A stretch of DNA of 64,000 nucleotides, taken from positions 1-64,000 of the forward strand of contig JALHOP010000015.1 of NCBI GenBank assembly GCA_022842935.1. The letters run 5' to 3'. A program made the translations under genes and the position numbers. The notes under the pieces are model-generated. The model saw only the letters and a list, made by a program, of their open reading frames with translations, made no database searches and had not been told where the DNA came from. Of the stretch, positions 1,070 through 16,334 are shown piece after piece (the first letter of the stretch is position 1; each line of letters starts with the position of its first letter). The DNA is from Myxococcota bacterium. Its GTDB lineage: Bacteria > Myxococcota > XYA12-FULL-58-9 > JALHOP01.

Positions 1070-3445
1070 TCAGTTACGCAACGGCTTACCGGACATCAGG
1101 ATGCTCTGGATGCGAGCCTGCGTCTTCTCCTCGCCGCAGAGCGAGACGAACGCTTCACGCTCGAGGTCGAGATAGTCTTGCTCGGTGCGCTCGGCGCCGA
1201 GCGCCACATGTCCGCCACAGAGGACATGGGCGACCTTTCGCGCGACCAGCGCGTCATGCTCGGTCGCGTGACCCGCCTGCACCATGTTGTAGACGCTGGC
1301 GCCGATGGTCTTCTCGAGATCGTAGCCCGCCGCCCTGAGCACCCTCGGACGCGGCGGCCGGTATCCGGCCCGCGCCATACCGAGCGCGCGTTGCTTGGCG
1401 TCGTAGGTCAGATAGTCACGATTGAGCGTAATGCCATCGGTCGGTGCCAGGTAGCGCAGCCGCTTACCTTCTTCGGCGCCGGTCGCCACCTTGGCGGTCG
1501 CGATGTTCAGCGACGCCTGAGCGATGAACGGCAAGATATCGACACCGGGGGTGTTCATCTCGCGCTCGGTCCAGCGCTCGACGCAGCGGAGTGAGCCCGT
1601 GCCCGCCGGGATGACGCCAACGCCCACCTCGACGAGGCCAATGTAGGTCTCTGCGTGCGCCACCGCAGCGTCGCACGACATCACCATCTCGCAAGCTCCG
1701 CCAAAGGTGTACTGGAACGGGGCCGCTACCGTAGGAATGCTGCTATAGCGGAGACGCTGGTAGACGTTCTGGAGCTCGCGCACCATGGTCTCGATCTGCG
1801 CCCAGTCTTTGTTTTGCGCGGCCATGTAAACGAGCATGAGGTTTGCGCCGGCGCCAAAGTGCTGGCCCTCATTGGTGACCACGAGACCTTGGAAGTCTTT
1901 CTCGGCGATATCGATGGCCTCGTTGAGCAACGTGATCACGTCGCCATCGAGGGTGTTCATCTTGGTGTGCACCTCCATGCAGAGGACACCGTCACCGAGG
2001 TCGAGCAATGAAGCGCCTAGGTTCTCCTTGACGACCTTCTTCGGATCTTCGTGCAGCGCCGCGAGCCGGATGTGCTTGGCGTCGAACGGCACCTTCACTG
2101 CCTTCTTCGCCTTGTGATCGAAGTACGACTTCGAGGCCTCACCGTCGCCGTAGAACGACTTGCGACCCGACGCGAGCATCTGCTCGACCCACTCGGGCAC
2201 CTTCATGCCGTCCTTCTTCATGCGCGCGACCGACTCTTCGACACCGATCGCGTCCCAGGCCTCGAAGGGTCCCAAGTCCCAGTTGAAGCCCCAGCGCATG
2301 GCGCGGTCGATATTGACGAGATCGTCGGAGATCTCGCCCACCAGCATAGCGCTGTACTGCAGTGTCCGCGCGAGCAGACGCCAAGCGAAATGCGCCGCCT
2401 TGTCGTCGGCGGCCACGAGCGCCTTAAGACGTGGGCCTACCTCTTCGATATTCTTGACCGCGCCCAGCGAATCGAAGCGAACCTTGTTCTGCGGGCGGTA
2501 CTCGAGCGTCTTGGGGTCGAGGACCATGATGTCCTTGCCCTCTTTCTTGTAGAAGCCGGCGCCCGTCTTCTGACCATGCCGGCCGCTCGCGACGAGCTTC
2601 TCGACCCAGGCTGGCGCCTTGAACATCTCGCGCTCGGGGTCCTTCACACCCTGCTCGTACGAGGTCTTGGCGACGTGCCCGATGACATCGATACCGACGA
2701 AGTCACCAAGACGGAACGCGCCGGTCGAGGGGCGGCCCATAGGCGTCGACGCGATCTTGTCGACCTCTTCGATGGTAAGGCCCATCTCGTCGTGCAAGTG
2801 CATCGCCACCATGGCGTCGTGGATGCCGATGCGGTTGGCGATGAAATTCGGCGTGTCCTTGCCGTGCACCACACCTTTGCCGAGCATCTCGCCAATGGCG
2901 ACCGCGCGCTCGAGCACTTTCGGGTCTGTTTTCGGCCCGCCAATGATCTCGAGCAGTCGCATGTAACGTACGGGGCTGAAGAAGTGCAGGATAACGAAAC
3001 GCTTCTGCACGTCGGCCGGCAGGTCCTCGATCATCGAAGCGAGCGAGAGACCGCTCGTGTTCGAGGCGACGATTGCGTTCGGGCCGATGTTCTTGGCGAC
3101 ATTGGCAAACAGCTTATTTTTGATGTCGAGACGCTCGACGACAGCCTCGATGACGAGGTCGCAGCCCTTGAGCACGCCCATGTCGTCTTCGAAGTTGCCG
3201 GGCGTGATGAGGCGCGCGATGTCGGCGTCGAAGAAGACCGCGGGCTTGGCTTTCAACCCCTTCTCGATGGCGCCGATGGCGAACTTGTTGCGGGCGGCCT
3301 TGTTCTTCGCGTCCTTCTCGGACAGGTCGGGCGGCACGATGTCGAGCAGATGCACGCGAACACCAAGGGCGGCGATATGCGCGGCAATCGCCGTTCCCAT
3401 GAAGCCAGCGCCGAGGACAGCAGCGGTTTGAAGTCGTTCAGCCAT
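1070..3445 (-). CDS. fadN: 3-hydroxyacyl-CoA dehydrogenase / enoyl-CoA hydratase, FadN type
   Basis: A 791-residue bifunctional fatty-acid beta-oxidation enzyme with the dehydrogenase first and the hydratase second, the order of Bacillus FadN, whose length it also matches. The N-terminal NAD-binding motif is VLGAGFMGTAIAAH, and the dehydrogenase His-Glu pair is in LHFFSPVRYMRLLEII. The C-terminal crotonase part keeps the catalytic Glu in GGACEMVMSCD and the second Glu in GLVEVGVGVIPAG. The start is set at ATG 3445 (MAERLQ), with GGGAG just upstream; the open frame extends further 5' without homology. A thiolase partner is not adjacent, unlike the FadJ/FadI pair near 42 kb. Confidence 0.93.
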   Translation of the reverse strand: MAERLQTAAVLGAGFMGTAIAAHIAALGVRVHLLDIVPPDLSEKDAKNKAARNKFAIGAIEKGLKAKPAVFFDADIARLITPGNFEDDMGVLKGCDLVIEAVVERLDIKNKLFANVAKNIGPNAIVASNTSGLSLASMIEDLPADVQKRFVILHFFSPVRYMRLLEIIGGPKTDPKVLERAVAIGEMLGKGVVHGKDTPNFIANRIGIHDAMVAMHLHDEMGLTIEEVDKIASTPMGRPSTGAFRLGDFVGIDVIGHVAKTSYEQGVKDPEREMFKAPAWVEKLVASGRHGQKTGAGFYKKEGKDIMVLDPKTLEYRPQNKVRFDSLGAVKNIEEVGPRLKALVAADDKAAHFAWRLLARTLQYSAMLVGEISDDLVNIDRAMRWGFNWDLGPFEAWDAIGVEESVARMKKDGMKVPEWVEQMLASGRKSFYGDGEASKSYFDHKAKKAVKVPFDAKHIRLAALHEDPKKVVKENLGASLLDLGDGVLCMEVHTKMNTLDGDVITLLNEAIDIAEKDFQGLVVTNEGQHFGAGANLMLVYMAAQNKDWAQIETMVRELQNVYQRLRYSSIPTVAAPFQYTFGGACEMVMSCDAAVAHAETYIGLVEVGVGVIPAGTGSLRCVERWTEREMNTPGVDILPFIAQASLNIATAKVATGAEEGKRLRYLAPTDGITLNRDYLTYDAKQRALGMARAGYRPPRPRVLRAAGYDLEKTIGASVYNMVQAGHATEHDALVARKVAHVLCGGHVALGAERTEQDYLDLEREAFVSLCGEEKTQARIQSILMSGKPLRN

Positions 3446-3595
3446 GGTGAGCTCCCTTGCGATTCCGTCGTGTGGACACTGACAAGATCGAAGCCGCAAG
3501 AACTTAGTCTCGATGCGGCTGCCGGGCAATGGCCGGGCCGTCGGTCGAAGCCGATGACAACCCTTGCGCCTTCGCGGCATACTTGGCGCTTACGC

Positions 3596-5710
3596 ATGTG
3601 GTGGAGAAACCGAAAGAACGTCGCGGTGATGGCGACGGCGATGGCGATCTGGGCGGCGAGCTGTCAGCGCGACCGGGTCGACCTGAACCGGCCCTGTGTA
3701 ACGGACGGCGACTGCGTCGACGGTACTGTCTGCAATAGCGGCCGCTGCGGTGACCTCCCGGATCCTACCTGCACGCCGCAGGGCGAGATTTGCGACGGGC
3801 GCGACAACGATTGCGACGGCAACCCAGACGACGGCTTCGAGTGTTTGCTCGGAAGCAGCGTCGGTTGCGGCGATGGCACCAGCAGGCTGTGCAAGAGCGA
3901 CTGCACCTTCAGCGAGTGCGTGCAAGACTGGTTCGATGGGGCGTGGCCACATCGCATTCCAATCACCCTGAACGGCAGCTTGGTGACGAGCGCGGTGGGC
4001 GACGTCGTGGTTCCCTTGCGCATCCCAGCGTCGACTTTTGACAGCGCAGGCCTTTCGACCACGACCTTGGACGGCCGCGACGTTCGCGTCACGGACGTAG
4101 CGAACCGCGAGCTGAAGCATCAGGTCGAGACATGGGACCCGGTTCGCGGTTACGTCGTCTGGGTATTCGTCCCGGACCTCGAAGCTGGAGAGTCGCGCAA
4201 GCTCCTTCTCTATGTTGGCAACGTCTTCGCCGAGTCAGCATCGACCCAAGAGATCTGGGACGAAGGCTACGTGGGCGTCTGGCATCTCGGCGACAACATC
4301 ACGAGGGAACCTCTGCGTGACGCGACTGCCGAAGAAAACCACGCGAACCGTGCCGTCGTGAGCGCGAGCTCCGGCGTATTCGGAAGCGGGCAGTACTACA
4401 ACGGAGGTCAGGGCGCCTTCGCTCCGACTGCCGAGGTCGCACCCGATAGCGACTTCACGATCGAGGGTTGGTTCATCCCCGCCCTCCCCGCCCAGCCCTA
4501 CCGCCGTGCGCTCTCCGTCAACGTCCCAGCAAGCGACACGCAAGCCTTGTGGATGGTGCCAAACGATATCGGCTTCAGGGCGCGCACCGACACGTATACG
4601 CTCGTTCGCGTCATCGAGGGCGAAGACGAGCGAACGTATGCGGTCCTCAAGACCGACGCCGGATACGAGCTATGGATTCGTTCCCCCGCGTCGGGTGTGC
4701 GTCCATTCACGCTCGTCTACGGCCAGAGCGGAATGAGCGACGACTCGAACCCGTCGGCGACTTTTCACTTCTGGGCCAACGCGGACCTTTGGGCGACCCA
4801 GTTTTCGCCGCAGCCTAGCGCCGTCACCAGCGGCACGCTGACGGTCGACGCTGGCCGTATGGGCACAACGCTCCCCTTCGACCTACGGCAAGGCTTCTTC
4901 GTGCAGACGTACGCCAACTACAACCCGACGGTCCCCTATATCGAGACGTCCGGTGGGCTGCCGCACATCAGCTCCGCACTGCAACCCTCGACGGACTTGT
5001 CCACACCGACAGCGGGCGTGTGGGTACGTCGCGCAGCCGAGCCCAGCAGCGGCGGTCTCATGCGCACGTCCGCGGGCGTCAATCCCGGCTTCGACCAAGG
5101 CTTCGACCTCGAGCTCCCCTTTCTTACTAACGATATTGGTATTGGCCTATACGACAACCAGGTGTCCGTTTTCGTGGACCAAGAGCTCGCGCGGAGCACG
5201 GATTGCGCCTGGTCCCAGCCTCTCAACCACCTGCTCCTCGGCGCCTACGACGGCGTACTGGGTATGTACCGCACCAACTACATCGCTATGTTCGTGCGGC
5301 GCTGGCCGGGGTCGACGCCTACGGTCGTCGCGAGCCCGGAGCGGGCGGGCGGCATCGGCCTTGGCGACTTCGCGGTGGGTGTCCAACCGGGCGCGGTCTA
5401 CGCCAGCACCAACGTCGCGACCGACTTCGCCTTCACACCGAGTGCTCGCCTAGCGGCGCGCCACATCGCGCTGGTCGTCCGTGGCACCACGGCGGCTGTC
5501 TACGTCGATGGCCAGCCAACCTTGAGCCTGACCGTCGCGGCGCACGGCACCTTCACCGGCTTCTCGTTGGCGGACGCTTTCGCGGTCAATGGTGTCGTCG
5601 ACGAGGTGCGGCTGTCGCGGGTGGCGCGGTCGCAAGAGCAGCTCGCTTTCCATGTCACCTCGGCACGCGCCGACTTCATCAGCCTGGGCGCCGCCGAGAC
5701 GCTCGAGTAG
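3596..5710 (+). CDS. Surface lipoprotein with MopE-type motif, DUF2341 and LamG-like domains
   Basis: A 704-residue protein with an N-terminal lipoprotein signal ending AIWAASC (Cys23). A Cys-rich segment follows, with the MopE-type metal-binding motif CDGRDNDCDGNPDDG near residues 65-79. After that comes a DUF2341-like region (WPHRIPITLN...) and a concanavalin/LamG fold opening GVWHLGD and closing GVVDEVRLSRVARS near the end. This architecture is typical of myxobacterial cell-surface proteins. ATG 3596 is chosen because it gives a basic n-region and a 23-residue signal; ATG 3554 is the alternative, and neither has a clear ribosome site. It diverges from fadN. The ligand is unknown. Confidence 0.85.
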   Translation: MWWRNRKNVAVMATAMAIWAASCQRDRVDLNRPCVTDGDCVDGTVCNSGRCGDLPDPTCTPQGEICDGRDNDCDGNPDDGFECLLGSSVGCGDGTSRLCKSDCTFSECVQDWFDGAWPHRIPITLNGSLVTSAVGDVVVPLRIPASTFDSAGLSTTTLDGRDVRVTDVANRELKHQVETWDPVRGYVVWVFVPDLEAGESRKLLLYVGNVFAESASTQEIWDEGYVGVWHLGDNITREPLRDATAEENHANRAVVSASSGVFGSGQYYNGGQGAFAPTAEVAPDSDFTIEGWFIPALPAQPYRRALSVNVPASDTQALWMVPNDIGFRARTDTYTLVRVIEGEDERTYAVLKTDAGYELWIRSPASGVRPFTLVYGQSGMSDDSNPSATFHFWANADLWATQFSPQPSAVTSGTLTVDAGRMGTTLPFDLRQGFFVQTYANYNPTVPYIETSGGLPHISSALQPSTDLSTPTAGVWVRRAAEPSSGGLMRTSAGVNPGFDQGFDLELPFLTNDIGIGLYDNQVSVFVDQELARSTDCAWSQPLNHLLLGAYDGVLGMYRTNYIAMFVRRWPGSTPTVVASPERAGGIGLGDFAVGVQPGAVYASTNVATDFAFTPSARLAARHIALVVRGTTAAVYVDGQPTLSLTVAAHGTFTGFSLADAFAVNGVVDEVRLSRVARSQEQLAFHVTSARADFISLGAAETLE

Positions 5711-5755: not shown

Positions 5756-8700
5756 TCAGAAGCGATGCGTGAAGACGCCAGAGAAATCCAAGCCAACGCT
5801 CAAGATCCAGCTGCCACCGAACTGGCGATTCGAGATCGTCGTGCCATCGGCGAGCAACACGTCGTCCGATTTTCCCCGCACCAGGACGATATCCGCCGAG
5901 ACGAAAAACGACAGCTTCTGCTGCCAAAACGGAAAGAGCAGACGCGTGACGTCGAGTGCGTAGAAGCCGAGGTCGGACGGCAGATCGTTCTGATCGGGAA
6001 ACAAATAGCGGAGATCGAGCGTACTCTCGAGGCGAAGCTGCTGGTAGATGGGCACCACCAGAGTGTAGCCAGCCCCGATACCGTAGCTAAGGTCGTAGGG
6101 CGACGGCTGCGCAAAGTCCTCCTGCACCAAGAAGCCGGCCCGGACCTCCCGCAGGCGCGGTCCGGGAAAGAAGACGAGGCCCACAATCGCGCGTGCAAGC
6201 TGCTGCCGCTTGTCGTTTTCGGTCGCAGCGGTGAGCTCGGTGTCGTAGGCAGCTTGCACGAACGGAACCACGCGCAACACGTCACCAATGGTGCCGAACT
6301 GCAGGGCGTTCAAGCGAAGCTCCGTCGAGACGACGACGTCGTCGAGGGTCTCTTGGGAGATACGCTCGTCGGGCACGCCATCGTCGTTGGTGTCGTTGCG
6401 CGCGATGAGCTTTGCGTAGTCGAGCCTGAGCCTCGTGTCCCAAGCGAAAGCCGCCGAGTCGTACACGGCCGCGACGTTGCTTCGGATGCCGAACTGGGTG
6501 TTCGCAGACTGCGTGACCCTACTCTCGCGCGTATCCTTGAAGCGCCTTATGTTCTCGCTGTTGCTGTAAGACGACGCCGAGAGCGAGAGCTGGTTCACGA
6601 TGAGCTTCCAACGCGGCACGACCTTGGTGCTCTCGTCTTCGAGCATTGCTTCGACGTAGTCGACAGCGCCGCTAGGCCCTTGCTTCTCACGCTCGAGCGC
6701 ATCGAGCACCATACCTCGTAATAGCGGACGGCCAGGCTCGGTCTTCTTGTTGGCGAAAGCGTCGGCGAGCTCACGCCCCGTGAGCACCGATTCACTCACA
6801 GCGACGCGGTAAGGCTCGCGCGGGTCGAGAGCGCGACCGCGGACGATTCCAGTAACGGGATCCATGCCAGAGACGAACAAGACCTGCGATGCAGGCCAGT
6901 CTTCTGCTTTGAATTGGCGCGCCAAGCGTTGCACCACGGGCTGCAGCTCGAGCCCGGTGAGCGTCACGACCTGCACCGAGTCGCCGGTACGTAGCCAGCT
7001 TCCTACCGTCTCGCGCGAGATTGGGCCTACGATCTCCCACTCGCGCGGCACGTTGTAGCTGATAGCGATGTCGGCCCGTGTCTCGCGATTGATGATGTTG
7101 GTGACCAGCCGCATCCAGAGCGGGTCCGAATAACGGGCTGGCTGGCTCCGAGGGGCGCGACGGTAGCCGCGTCGATGCAGGATGTGCTCGCCCCAGACGA
7201 GGCCTGCGAGCTCGGGCTTCCCCTCGACCATCAACCGAGCTTCCGGAACCAAGATGGTGGCGTCGGTGATGAGGCTCTTCTCCTCAGCGAGACGAAAGCT
7301 GCGCTCGACCTCGGTGTCGGTGGGGCCATCTTCGAGGACCGGTTGGCGCTCCTCGACGATTCGCACGGGGCGCGCACGACGGCGTCCCTTCAGACGCACG
7401 AGATCGGCGCTGATGCGGGTCACGGCGCGCCACGGCGGCTGCATGGCGACGAGGGCGCCGCTGCCATACGTCACCTCGAGCTCACTCGGAGCCTCCGGCA
7501 CATCCGTGACTCGGCGCATGGGGTCGATGTTCGCGTTCACGGGCGGCCCGATCACGAGGTCGACACCTTCGATGCGCGTGAGCGGCGCTGGGTCCCGCGA
7601 CGCGACCAGAACGACGGTAAGGTCCGGGCGGCGCTTGAGATAGGCGCGTAGCTCTTCGACGACACGCCCGACGGCGATGGTCATGTCCTCGAAGCGCCAC
7701 GTCTTTCGCACCGAGGTCGGCAAGCTGTCGAGCTCCGCGGGGTCGACTACACCGACGAACGCGACGGTTAGCCCATCGCGTTCTTGCAGGATGAAGCGAG
7801 GGAAAGGCCGCGCCGTGAAATCGTTGACGGTGGTCTCTCGCCGGAACAGGTTCGCAGCCAGGTAAGGAAGACCGAACTTGTTCGCTAACGCGTACAGCTG
7901 TTCGGGGCCGAGTCCAAGCTCGGAGGCGACTGGAACCATGGCGGTGTAGCCCAAGTTCTTCGCGGTGCCGCCGCAATGCTCGAGGATCTGCGGCGCCATG
8001 CGTGTGCCGAGCACGTCGCCCATCGACACCAACATCGCAGGGTTCTTCACGCGGGTGCGATCAGGTTCTGTCTCGGCCCACACACGACTGATGCGACCGA
8101 GTCGGCGGCCCAGGCTGTAGAACGTCGTCTTGAAGTCTGCGGTGGTCACCTGCGTGATCCCGGCGAACTCGGGGACGTAGTCGATGACATCGCTCGAGAG
8201 CTTGACGCGTTCGTTGGTCTCGAGCTCGAGGACCAAGATGGCGCTGTCACCCTTGCGGTAACGCGTTAGTCGTCCATAGCGACGCGTCGTGAGGGGAAAG
8301 CGCTCTCCGGGAGCGAGCGACTCCTCGATGCCCGCAAGGGTGTCGAAAAGAGCATCGTAAGGGTACTGAAACGCGACCTCCTGGACGTTTACGAGCACGG
8401 GCAAACGCTCGGCCAGCAGCTCGCGCTCGTAACCCAACGGGTCGGCGATGAAGCGACGAGCATCCATCACGTCGGTACTGTCCCGTTCGGGAAAAACGTA
8501 GATGGGCCCCCGGCGGAGGGCTGGAAACCCAGCGGAGGTGACGTTCACCGATCCGGGCCGGTCGGCGAAGTTCTCGTAGAGGACAGAAAGGAGCTGCACG
8601 GTCGTGTCGCCCGAATCGAGGCATCCGTGGGTTGGCAACACGATGTCGATGGTACTGCGCGGAGGGGGAGGCTTGACTGGGAGCGCCGGCAGTTGCTCGA

Positions 8701-8926
8701 CGCTCGTCGGCGGCGGCTCGACTACCGGGGTTGGGGACGGCGCGGGCTCGGCCGGCGGATCGGGCATCCCACCCTGCTCGGCCACGGGGCTCTCCGGGGT
8801 CTCGGGCGGCTGGTCGGGCAGCACGAGGCCTGGCCCCATCGAACCGCTCGTCCCCTGTGCCGAGGCGGGGCGTCCGGCCGCAACGATGAGGCCAAGAACG
8901 GCGATACGAAGGGTTCCACGTAGCAC
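5756..8926 (-). CDS. Exported 5'-nucleotidase-fold pseudoenzyme with C-terminal outer-membrane barrel
   Basis: A 1056-residue protein starting with GTG at 8926. It has a Sec signal (cleavage after RPASA, residue 23) and a Pro-rich linker (35-90). Residues about 92-470 follow the UshA/5'-nucleotidase metallophosphoesterase pattern, and 555-740 follow the nucleotidase C-terminal domain (LVTNIINRETRADIAISYN). Residues about 775-1056 read as alternating beta strands ending in Phe, like an outer-membrane barrel. The usual metal ligands are absent: D-x-H is LPTH (97-100), the GNHE position is VASE (333-336), and the GHxH position is GPPVN (460-464). Only GD of SMGDVLG (303-304) remains. It is probably a non-catalytic binding protein fixed in the outer membrane. 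Confidence 0.75.
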   Translation of the reverse strand: MLRGTLRIAVLGLIVAAGRPASAQGTSGSMGPGLVLPDQPPETPESPVAEQGGMPDPPAEPAPSPTPVVEPPPTSVEQLPALPVKPPPPRSTIDIVLPTHGCLDSGDTTVQLLSVLYENFADRPGSVNVTSAGFPALRRGPIYVFPERDSTDVMDARRFIADPLGYERELLAERLPVLVNVQEVAFQYPYDALFDTLAGIEESLAPGERFPLTTRRYGRLTRYRKGDSAILVLELETNERVKLSSDVIDYVPEFAGITQVTTADFKTTFYSLGRRLGRISRVWAETEPDRTRVKNPAMLVSMGDVLGTRMAPQILEHCGGTAKNLGYTAMVPVASELGLGPEQLYALANKFGLPYLAANLFRRETTVNDFTARPFPRFILQERDGLTVAFVGVVDPAELDSLPTSVRKTWRFEDMTIAVGRVVEELRAYLKRRPDLTVVLVASRDPAPLTRIEGVDLVIGPPVNANIDPMRRVTDVPEAPSELEVTYGSGALVAMQPPWRAVTRISADLVRLKGRRRARPVRIVEERQPVLEDGPTDTEVERSFRLAEEKSLITDATILVPEARLMVEGKPELAGLVWGEHILHRRGYRRAPRSQPARYSDPLWMRLVTNIINRETRADIAISYNVPREWEIVGPISRETVGSWLRTGDSVQVVTLTGLELQPVVQRLARQFKAEDWPASQVLFVSGMDPVTGIVRGRALDPREPYRVAVSESVLTGRELADAFANKKTEPGRPLLRGMVLDALEREKQGPSGAVDYVEAMLEDESTKVVPRWKLIVNQLSLSASSYSNSENIRRFKDTRESRVTQSANTQFGIRSNVAAVYDSAAFAWDTRLRLDYAKLIARNDTNDDGVPDERISQETLDDVVVSTELRLNALQFGTIGDVLRVVPFVQAAYDTELTAATENDKRQQLARAIVGLVFFPGPRLREVRAGFLVQEDFAQPSPYDLSYGIGAGYTLVVPIYQQLRLESTLDLRYLFPDQNDLPSDLGFYALDVTRLLFPFWQQKLSFFVSADIVLVRGKSDDVLLADGTTISNRQFGGSWILSVGLDFSGVFTHRF

Positions 8927-10785: not shown

Positions 10786-12582
10786 TCACGGCTCGCGGTA
10801 GCGCGACCAGCTGCGTACGAAGTCCTCGTGTTTGGCGTGTTCGCTAAAACGGCTCGACTGGCTCCCCGCGAAGATCCAGTAAGCCCGCCTGTCGACCTCG
10901 TTCACCGGCGAAACGTCACCATCGTACATGTGGGCGCCGATCCTCGGGCCAACCAATAGGTCGGTGGAGCCACGCTGCGCTGCGCGATGGGTGGTCTCGA
11001 CGGCGAAGATCGCTGGTCTCCCAGACAGGATATTGCTGCCAACGGCGTCCACGATAGCGGGATCGAGCCGATCACGGACCGTCGTGGTACCGCGCGCCAT
11101 GACGTAGTTGTTGTTGACGAACGCCCAGGCCCGGGGCTCGGAGGCGTTGCTCGTCGGACGCTCGACGACCACCGAAGCGGCATGGGTGTCGAGGAGGACC
11201 CAGTAGGTTTGAAAGCGTGGCTGGCCGTCGGCGCGGCGAAGGCCGCCAAAGACATGCGTCGTGATCGCCGCGAAGAACTCGCAGTCGAGGAGGCGCTGGC
11301 CGGTACGCGCTGGCAGCAGATCGTTCACCAAGCCCTGCGTGTCGTGGGTGAGGCGGCCGATATCGAAATCTTGCATACCACCGACTTGAACCGCCCCCTG
11401 AATGTCGAGCGAATGACCGTGCAGATAGAACGCTGTGAGGTACTGCTGCCAACGGGTGAACACCTCTGCTGTCGGCATGCCGCCATCGAGGAGCTGCTGC
11501 ACGTGTGTACGCACCTGGCGCAAGTCGTGCGGATTACCGGTCCGCGGCCAGCCGGCGCTATGTTGCCAGTCGTGTTGCGCTTTCAGCGTGCGCGCGTACG
11601 CGGCAGCGGACACCGTACGGGTATCGGCATCGAAGTTGTAAACGAGGTCGACCTGGCGTGGCAGCCAATAAGCCGAGCCCGTGCCCACGTCGCGCAAGTC
11701 GCTACGGTAGTAGCCATCGAAGGCGCGCATTCCGACAACGAGGCCCGCGTTGGTGGTACCGATGACGCGACCGTCGTTGACGGCGATGCTCCAGCCGTCA
11801 CGGAACTCGACGGGGAGGTTACTCACCTGGATGTCGAGGCGCTGCAAGCGAGCGATGAAGGCCTCGAGCTGCGTCCGGTCGCCGGCCGCGATCAGTCTAC
11901 GCGTCGCGCCTTCGACGATGTTCTGTGCCTCGGCGGCGCGTTGCGGCGTCGCGGGTGATGAAGCAAGGCGTTGCAAAGCCGCGATGGCGGAGTCGGGCGC
12001 GCCTGTAAAGGCAGGCGCTTCATCGATCTGTTGGGGTGGTACGCCGGGCGCGCCGGTGCGGGCGTTGGCAGAGACGCGGGGGTCACGCGCGGCCACCCTC
12101 GAGGCGTTGCGCTCCTCGGCCCCTTCGAGCTGCAAGCGCACGGCGTAGCCCACGAGACGGCGACCATCGGCGTCGCTCGCCCGAAGACGATTCTCCGCAA
12201 TCAACGCATTGGCGACCCCATCGACGAGTTGCTCGCGCTCGGCGGGCGAGAGCGCCGCGAGTTCGCGGCTCATCGAGCGCCACTGGGTTTCGAGAGCCGC
12301 GACCAGCGCTAGGTCCCAGGCGCGACCAGAAAGCGCACGTAGGGGCAGCGTGGCGTTTCCGGAGACCGCGCGTACAGCGCGCGTCAATGTCTGTGATGGC
12401 GGACGCAGCGTCCCCGCCCGCGGCGCCACCAGTCGCTCGAGCGGCCGGCGCTCGCGACGCCTGGCACGCGGCGCGGGGGCATTGAGGACCGGGTCACGAC
12501 CAACCGCGACCCCGTCGTCGCCCTCGCTGACGGCGAGGCTCCGCGAAGGGGCCGATGCGAGTGAGACCGCCGGTAATGTCAC
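10786..12582 (-). CDS. Unknown protein with possible transglutaminase-like C-terminal region
   Basis: A 598-residue protein that I cannot assign to a named family. Residues 1-90 are Arg/Pro/Ala-rich and low in complexity, and 90-260 are helical. Residues about 290-590 look globular, with many aromatics. A Cys434 (LLDCEFFAA), a His467 (DTHAASVVVE) and an Asn cluster about 20 residues later (AWAFVNNN) occur in the order and rough spacing of transglutaminase/papain-like Cys-His-Asp/Asn triads. There is no signal peptide or membrane helix. The start is GTG at 12582; a nearby ATG (12590) runs into a stop. The gene converges on panC with a 9-base gap. Confidence 0.7.
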   Translation of the reverse strand: MTLPAVSLASAPSRSLAVSEGDDGVAVGRDPVLNAPAPRARRRERRPLERLVAPRAGTLRPPSQTLTRAVRAVSGNATLPLRALSGRAWDLALVAALETQWRSMSRELAALSPAEREQLVDGVANALIAENRLRASDADGRRLVGYAVRLQLEGAEERNASRVAARDPRVSANARTGAPGVPPQQIDEAPAFTGAPDSAIAALQRLASSPATPQRAAEAQNIVEGATRRLIAAGDRTQLEAFIARLQRLDIQVSNLPVEFRDGWSIAVNDGRVIGTTNAGLVVGMRAFDGYYRSDLRDVGTGSAYWLPRQVDLVYNFDADTRTVSAAAYARTLKAQHDWQHSAGWPRTGNPHDLRQVRTHVQQLLDGGMPTAEVFTRWQQYLTAFYLHGHSLDIQGAVQVGGMQDFDIGRLTHDTQGLVNDLLPARTGQRLLDCEFFAAITTHVFGGLRRADGQPRFQTYWVLLDTHAASVVVERPTSNASEPRAWAFVNNNYVMARGTTTVRDRLDPAIVDAVGSNILSGRPAIFAVETTHRAAQRGSTDLLVGPRIGAHMYDGDVSPVNEVDRRAYWIFAGSQSSRFSEHAKHEDFVRSWSRYREP

Positions 12583-14963: not shown

Positions 14964-16334
14964 CTACTTCGACAGCGTCACAACCAGCGCGTTGCCGCGC
15001 GGTTCGACGCGGGCGTCCTGAACGTTGGCCGCAACCTCGAGGACGTAACGGGTCTTGTCCTCGTAGCTGCCAACCCGGACCTTGCTAACGAGGGCGCCCT
15101 TGGGCTCGGGGGTCGTGGCGGCGCGCTTGCCGGGTACGTCGACGACGTAGCGGCGCGGATTGTCGAGCCAGAACGCGTGCGGTTTGGCGGCGGCGCTGCC
15201 GCTCGCCAGGGTCACCTCGGTGGAGCCTGCGCTCGCCTTGCGAGGCAGCAGGTCGCTCGCGGGCTTTGCGGGTGCGGGTGCCGGCTTGGTGACAACCTGC
15301 GAGATCTTGGTCGCTGCAGGCTCGCTCGTCTTGGCGACGGGCGCGGCTTCTTCGGCCTTGGCTGCGACCGTGGGGACCGGGGCCTCGAGGGCAGGTAGCG
15401 GCGGCTCGGGCGCCTTGGCAACGACAGGCTCACTGCCTCCTTGCGCGCCGATCGTCACCGGCGTCGAGAGCGGCGGCAGCGCGGCGGCGTCGGGCGCTTC
15501 GGCAATGGTCGCCGTCGGAAGCGGCAGGTCTTCGTCGACGTCCTGCGTCCCTGCGCCGAAAACATGCGGCAACGCCGAGAGCACGAGCGCGAGGCCCATG
15601 CCGCCGATCATCCCGAAGGCGGCGCTGCTCCACGAGCTCTGCTGACGGCGTGGTGTCGGACGTGCTTGCTCGGGCGTGGGCATCATTGGAAGTGGCCAGT
15701 CCCCTGCCCGACCTTCGAGTCGCTCGCGCACCGTGCCGGAAATGCGCTGCGACTCATCGTCGGTGAGGCTCGTGAACTGTACGCCATAGAGGACATGCTG
15801 CGGGTCGTGGTCGCGCCGCCAAACAACGGCGCAGAGTAGCGAGAGCGGATCTTCCGCGAGGCCAAGCTTGAAACGCACCCAGATACGCTGGCCAGGTGCG
15901 AGCTCGAGCGGCAGCGCGCAGGCGATGCCGGTGGTCGAGAGATTCAAGACGGCGCCGCGATAAAGGTCGGAGTCGCCTTCGACCATGACGTCGAGCGGGA
16001 CGGCAAAGCGCACACGCTCAGGTGGGATGGCGCCGGCCGCGAGGATCGGCATCTCGATGTCGAAGGCCGCCTCCGCGATGGCGTTAGGATCGCTTGGCTC
16101 TGCGTCCATGGTCGGCTCGTCCTCGAGCACGACCGACGCGACGTCGACCTCGATGGCGTCTTCGATCTCGGCGGCGAGGTCTACGTTGGGCCCGCCCGTG
16201 GGCTCGGCGGGGGCTTCCTGAAAGCGCGCGTCGCCGATGGCGATGGGCATGGAGAAGAGGTCCGAGGAGAAGCCCTCCGCGTCTCCGGTGGGCTCATTCG
16301 CGTCAAAATCGCTTCCGAACTTCGTTTCAGCCAT
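14964..16334 (-). CDS. PilZ - transmembrane - AMIN domain protein
   Basis: A 456-residue protein. Residues 1-100 are acidic and disordered. A PilZ domain spans about 105-209 with NLSTTG (131-136), the (D/N)xSxxG motif, but only RVRF where RxxxR is expected, so c-di-GMP binding is doubtful. A single membrane helix follows at about 237-260, then a Pro/Ala-rich periplasmic linker. An AMIN-type beta domain (about 365-456, ending ARVEPRGNALVVTLSK) is present; AMIN domains bind peptidoglycan or appear in PilQ and AmiC. The predicted topology puts PilZ in the cytoplasm and AMIN in the periplasm, which could link second-messenger or protein signals to the cell wall or pilus secretin. Confidence 0.85.
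   Translation of the reverse strand: MAETKFGSDFDANEPTGDAEGFSSDLFSMPIAIGDARFQEAPAEPTGGPNVDLAAEIEDAIEVDVASVVLEDEPTMDAEPSDPNAIAEAAFDIEMPILAAGAIPPERVRFAVPLDVMVEGDSDLYRGAVLNLSTTGIACALPLELAPGQRIWVRFKLGLAEDPLSLLCAVVWRRDHDPQHVLYGVQFTSLTDDESQRISGTVRERLEGRAGDWPLPMMPTPEQARPTPRRQQSSWSSAAFGMIGGMGLALVLSALPHVFGAGTQDVDEDLPLPTATIAEAPDAAALPPLSTPVTIGAQGGSEPVVAKAPEPPLPALEAPVPTVAAKAEEAAPVAKTSEPAATKISQVVTKPAPAPAKPASDLLPRKASAGSTEVTLASGSAAAKPHAFWLDNPRRYVVDVPGKRAATTPEPKGALVSKVRVGSYEDKTRYVLEVAANVQDARVEPRGNALVVTLSK

Follow-up and report, generated by a model that had tools for sequence, protein, structure and literature searches.

What does a gene encode that reads as a 5'-nucleotidase stripped of its metal ligands and joined to an outer-membrane barrel, and what could such a protein do? 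The question arose from a sequence-only reading of one open reading frame in a 64,000-nucleotide stretch of Myxococcota DNA (the window; positions 1 to 64,000 of contig JALHOP010000015.1, assembly GCA_022842935.1). By its codon-position composition the frame is a real gene, with a G+C content of 67/46/79% at the three positions against 70/46/77% in the panB gene next to it; panB-panC is divergent from it. One copy is present in the 6.28 Mb genome (46 contigs searched). The signal peptide was read from the sequence, and the N-termini of relatives resemble its start; the proline-rich linker that follows is short or missing in several of them.

Table. Features of the barrel-fusion gene (positions in the window)
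Feature	Position	Strand	Residues	Remarks
Whole gene	5756..8926	-		1056 aa; GTG start; stop codon 5756-5758
Sec-type signal peptide	8855..8926	-	1-24	Basic start, hydrophobic core, ASA-Q
Pro-rich linker	8654..8854	-	25-91	
LPTH (D-x-H site)	8627..8638	-	97-100	Asp lost, His100 retained
Insert of ~160 aa	8048..8536	-	131-293	After first strand, before GD motif
Metallophosphoesterase-like core	7397..8047	-	294-510	Profile to UshA/SoxB; Foldseek
GD (bridging Asp site)	8015..8020	-	303-304	Asp304 retained
VASE (GNHE site)	7919..7930	-	333-336	Asn and catalytic His lost
SRD (single-His site)	7592..7600	-	443-445	His replaced by Ser443
GPPVN (GHxH site)	7535..7549	-	460-464	Both His lost
5'-nucleotidase C-terminal-like domain	6755..7141	-	596-724	PF02872
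12-stranded outer-membrane beta-barrel	5777..6613	-	772-1050	AF2, Foldseek, hydrophobic alternation

The N-terminal two thirds of the 1056-aa protein is homologous to UshA/SoxB/CD73-type nucleotidases over both of their domains. On the single sequence, PF02872 was matched at 7.3e-6 (26.6 bits, cut-off 23.6), and the N-terminal match was weak (SoxB, 3.5e-4); the N-terminal homology is solid only at the level of the family profile, and this profile of four relatives matched UshA (4.7e-10) and SoxB (9.3e-9) in the PDB, with both UshA domains collinear and in order. The AF2 model of the full-length protein has a mean pLDDT of 47.8, but reaches 65-87 across much of the core, and its best Foldseek matches were 5'-nucleotidases, CD73 and SoxB (E ~1e-14, probability 1.00), with TM-scores depressed by the large unreliable portion of the model; outside the core it is too poor for the domains to be placed relative to the barrel. 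The UshA-type fold and C-terminal nucleotidase domain recognised in the sequence-only reading, which had named structure prediction as a check, are thus borne out by profile, PF02872 and Foldseek alike. The protein has the two-domain fold, metallophosphoesterase plus 5_nucleotid_C, of the UshA / 5'-nucleotidase family (PF00149 and PF02872, including the CD73 and SoxB folds), whereas its barrel and its ~160-aa insert, the latter not remarked on in the sequence-only reading, are additions to it.

Residues 756-1056 were predicted together with three relatives; one of five models was good (pLDDT 70.3, pTM 0.68) and formed a barrel of 12 long strands, and the remaining four stayed below 43. Evidence independent of the AF2 model came from the conserved alternation of hydrophobic residues, which was compared with shuffled sequences and gave z = 5.2 for the barrel, against -1.2 and -1.0 for two soluble regions. 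Foldseek matched the barrel to OMPLA (TM of the target up to 0.57), to NalP (0.43) and to porins. OMPLA, which is also 12-stranded and gave the best TM among the matches, shares only ~10% identity and is without a comparable N-terminal domain; its catalytic His-x-Ser is absent from the barrel described here, where the sole His of the last 280 residues lies in the terminal THRF. The protein has both the signal peptide and the amphipathic antiparallel barrel of an outer-membrane beta-barrel protein, and the barrel that had been proposed for its C-terminus, now placed in the last ~285 residues, is upheld. The terminal Phe noted at the same time is real in the 1056-aa protein, but is not a family trait; the last residue of the relatives is L, H, R or P.

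The architecture recurs in other Myxococcota-type bacteria, where eight relatives were found in two further lineages: L014 (= L005, 985 aa), L015 (= L006, 949 aa), L016, L021, L022, L023, L024 and the truncated L025, for nine members in total. Within the phylum 58 genomes were sampled, as were two small families, and a species-level collection was pattern-scanned twice. The fusion was present in all six sampled genomes of one family, in two of four of another, and in one of eight genomes of its own order; same-order and same-class searches found no barrel fusion in seven other genomes. A first scan of genome contigs with the single protein gave no match, and PHROGs and viral structures returned generic barrels only, with no relative among them. 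Since the architecture holds at 23-34% identity (the 1056-aa protein against three relatives) and occurs in every sampled genome of one family, it has probably been kept by selection. A 137-column tree of the core gave a single clade of barrel fusions a support of just 0.41, too low to resolve it, and did not settle the branching order; the case for the fusion having arisen once comes from the barrel common to all members and not from this tree.

The motifs LPTH, VASE, SRD and GPPVN each lie at the expected position of an UshA ligand site, as the sequence-only reading had it. Its claim that the ligands are lost holds for most of them, but two of the seven classical ligands, unmentioned at the time, stay in the 1056-aa protein: the D-x-H-G His lines up with His100, and the GD motif's bridging Asp with Asp304 (MGD). 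The dinuclear ligand set of the UshA family (D-x-H, GD, GNHE, His, GHxH) is nonetheless incomplete, and a survey of homologues, which had been suggested as a check, revealed consistent loss; the Asn and the catalytic His of GNHE (His117 in UshA numbering) and both His of GHxH are missing from nine of nine members. The GNHE site reads VASE, RARD, RTAD, GLSE, GAAE, ATNE, GAAE, GAAE and GVSE, always ending in E or D. The single His is kept only in L023, the GD Asp in three of the eight members that cover the site (the 1056-aa protein, L022 and L023), and the D-x-H His only in the 1056-aa protein. Canonical nucleotidases encoded in the genome of the 1056-aa protein and in its phylum (L002, L011-L013) retain GNHE or GNHD together with GHxH, and a canonical nucleotidase of that genome, separate from the barrel fusion, has DLHG, GD, GNHE, GHTH, PFGN and GGDG all intact; catalysis is therefore covered elsewhere. 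A Cys102/Cys318 pair, common only to the 1056-aa protein, L014 and L015, could be disulfide-linked close to where the active site once was; with the pair in three of nine members, a family-wide redox site was rejected.

Binding of nucleotide or phosphate by the dead domain, which had been put forward as its role, is not supported. Phosphate binding in an UshA-type fold needs the metals, which have been lost here; both base-stacking Phe residues are absent as well. In UshA, the base is stacked between Phe429 and Phe498, and His117 is the catalytic residue (PMC7922932). When the members were aligned to UshA and to one another, the Phe429 position was non-aromatic in all nine, and the Phe498 position was Phe only in L016, L021 and L022, being lost in the branch of the 1056-aa protein, which has no aromatic base clamp of the UshA kind. 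The domain should be unable to hydrolyse nucleotides, because the dimetal centre, the catalytic His and the aromatic base clamp are all lost. The combination of dead nucleotidase and barrel is a real family, undescribed as far as our searches reach (literature searches of open-licence papers for a nucleotidase-barrel fusion returned nothing); its members have an outer-membrane barrel fused to a pseudoenzyme from the nucleotidase superfamily, and it provides nine sequences in which a dead nucleotidase on a barrel can be studied.

The closest relatives without a barrel are the known metal-poor UshA-like (seleno)proteins of NF041198 (PCGU/PCxC type). UshA-like proteins of this type have been listed as a selenoprotein family (PMC2398784, PMC13188914). 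They too have an UshA fold with altered metal motifs, for example GRLD or SALD in place of GNHE (L019, L008), whereas the barrel fusions are without PCGU/PCxC, without haem motifs, and with a barrel. After the first strand, where PCGU/PCxC was sought, the 1056-aa protein has THGCLDSG and its relatives GG or GC. Scores against NF041198 were 43 bits (1.8e-11) for L014 and 16 bits (0.0036) for the 1056-aa protein, both well short of the 275-bit curated cut-off; membership of the barrel fusions was rejected because the motif is missing and the score is far under that cut-off. Six UshA-like proteins (L018 and L029-L033, from genomes G058-G063) contain PCG-TGA-PKNPLGGLAR, in which the TGA is in frame; a conserved GC-rich stretch (GGCGGTCTCGCC) comes next, and the C-terminal part has CxxCH haem motifs. 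These six look like selenocysteine proteins of NF041198 type. Genomes with a barrel fusion also carry such in-frame-TGA proteins.

The explanation that we favour, at somewhat less than even confidence, is that the barrel-fusion protein is an outer-membrane protein whose dead UshA-fold module faces the periplasm and binds or docks, scaffolding or gating the barrel. Sec would export the protein, and its C-terminal part would insert in the outer membrane as a 12-stranded barrel. In barrels with an even number of strands both termini normally lie in the periplasm, and because this barrel is even-stranded, the UshA-fold part would most likely hang on the periplasmic side; there it may dock or bind a protein partner or some solute, and could scaffold or gate the barrel, perhaps through the hinge between the two domains of its fold. 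If confirmed, this would give the UshA fold a second function in the envelope, in addition to nucleotide salvage and SoxB. A more specific proposal, in which the dead two-domain nucleotidase is the gate of a new outer-membrane channel or receptor and the ancestral hinge senses a non-nucleotide ligand, is a long shot; the receptor or transporter plug suggested in the sequence-only reading is likewise a guess.

The main rival to a periplasm-facing module is an autotransporter-like (type V) protein, the barrel acting as translocator and the dead nucleotidase as a surface passenger, either an adhesin or a ligand binder. Signal peptide, globular passenger and C-terminal 12-stranded barrel ending in Phe follow the classical order, shared with autotransporters of the EstA/NalP type (from which this protein differs in having a dead nucleotidase as its globular domain), and one of the structural matches is the translocator of NalP; yet neither Pfam nor NCBIfam gave an autotransporter profile match at E<=10, OMPLA is a better structural fit than NalP, the terminal Phe is not conserved, and the model, in a low-confidence stretch, has no pore-filling helix ahead of strand 1. 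We consider this reading unlikely, and decidedly unlikely one in which the barrel is a mere membrane anchor and the nucleotidase fold a spacer or piece of envelope scaffold that neither gates nor binds a small ligand. Loss of all catalytic and base-binding residues, the missing conserved operon partner and the low sequence identity would suit such an anchor, but nine proteins preserve the full two-domain nucleotidase together with its insert, beyond what a spacer needs. Counting against our favoured periplasm-facing module, one metal could in principle be held by His100, Asp304 and Asn464 in the 1056-aa protein. That the protein is still an enzyme, by such a single metal or by a new active site built from other residues, could draw on the two surviving ligands, the invariably acidic end of the GNHE site and the cysteine pair common to L014 and L015; the ligands are not conserved, however, the cysteines occur in a minority of members and the His117 position is lost throughout, and we regard continued catalysis as very improbable.

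A further point against the favoured module is that no neighbour gene is conserved across the family, panBC lying here and other genes at the relatives' loci; a ligA-like gene and a large membrane protein, compared by eye, are common only to G058 and G063, two close relatives, and were rejected as a conserved operon partner. Adjoining the barrel-fusion gene is a Cys-rich, lipoprotein-like ORF (CTPQGEICDGRDNDCDGNPDDGFECLLG) on the + strand (3700-5710), in which concanavalin/LamG-like stretches were noted by eye; it sits in a long open frame (2051-5710), and its start position is putative. A 598-aa ORF on the - strand (10786-12582) has no Pfam matches. Also on the - strand, at 14964-16334, a single protein carries a PilZ domain and an AMIN domain; the first is of c-di-GMP type and the second targets the envelope, which makes the pairing unusual.
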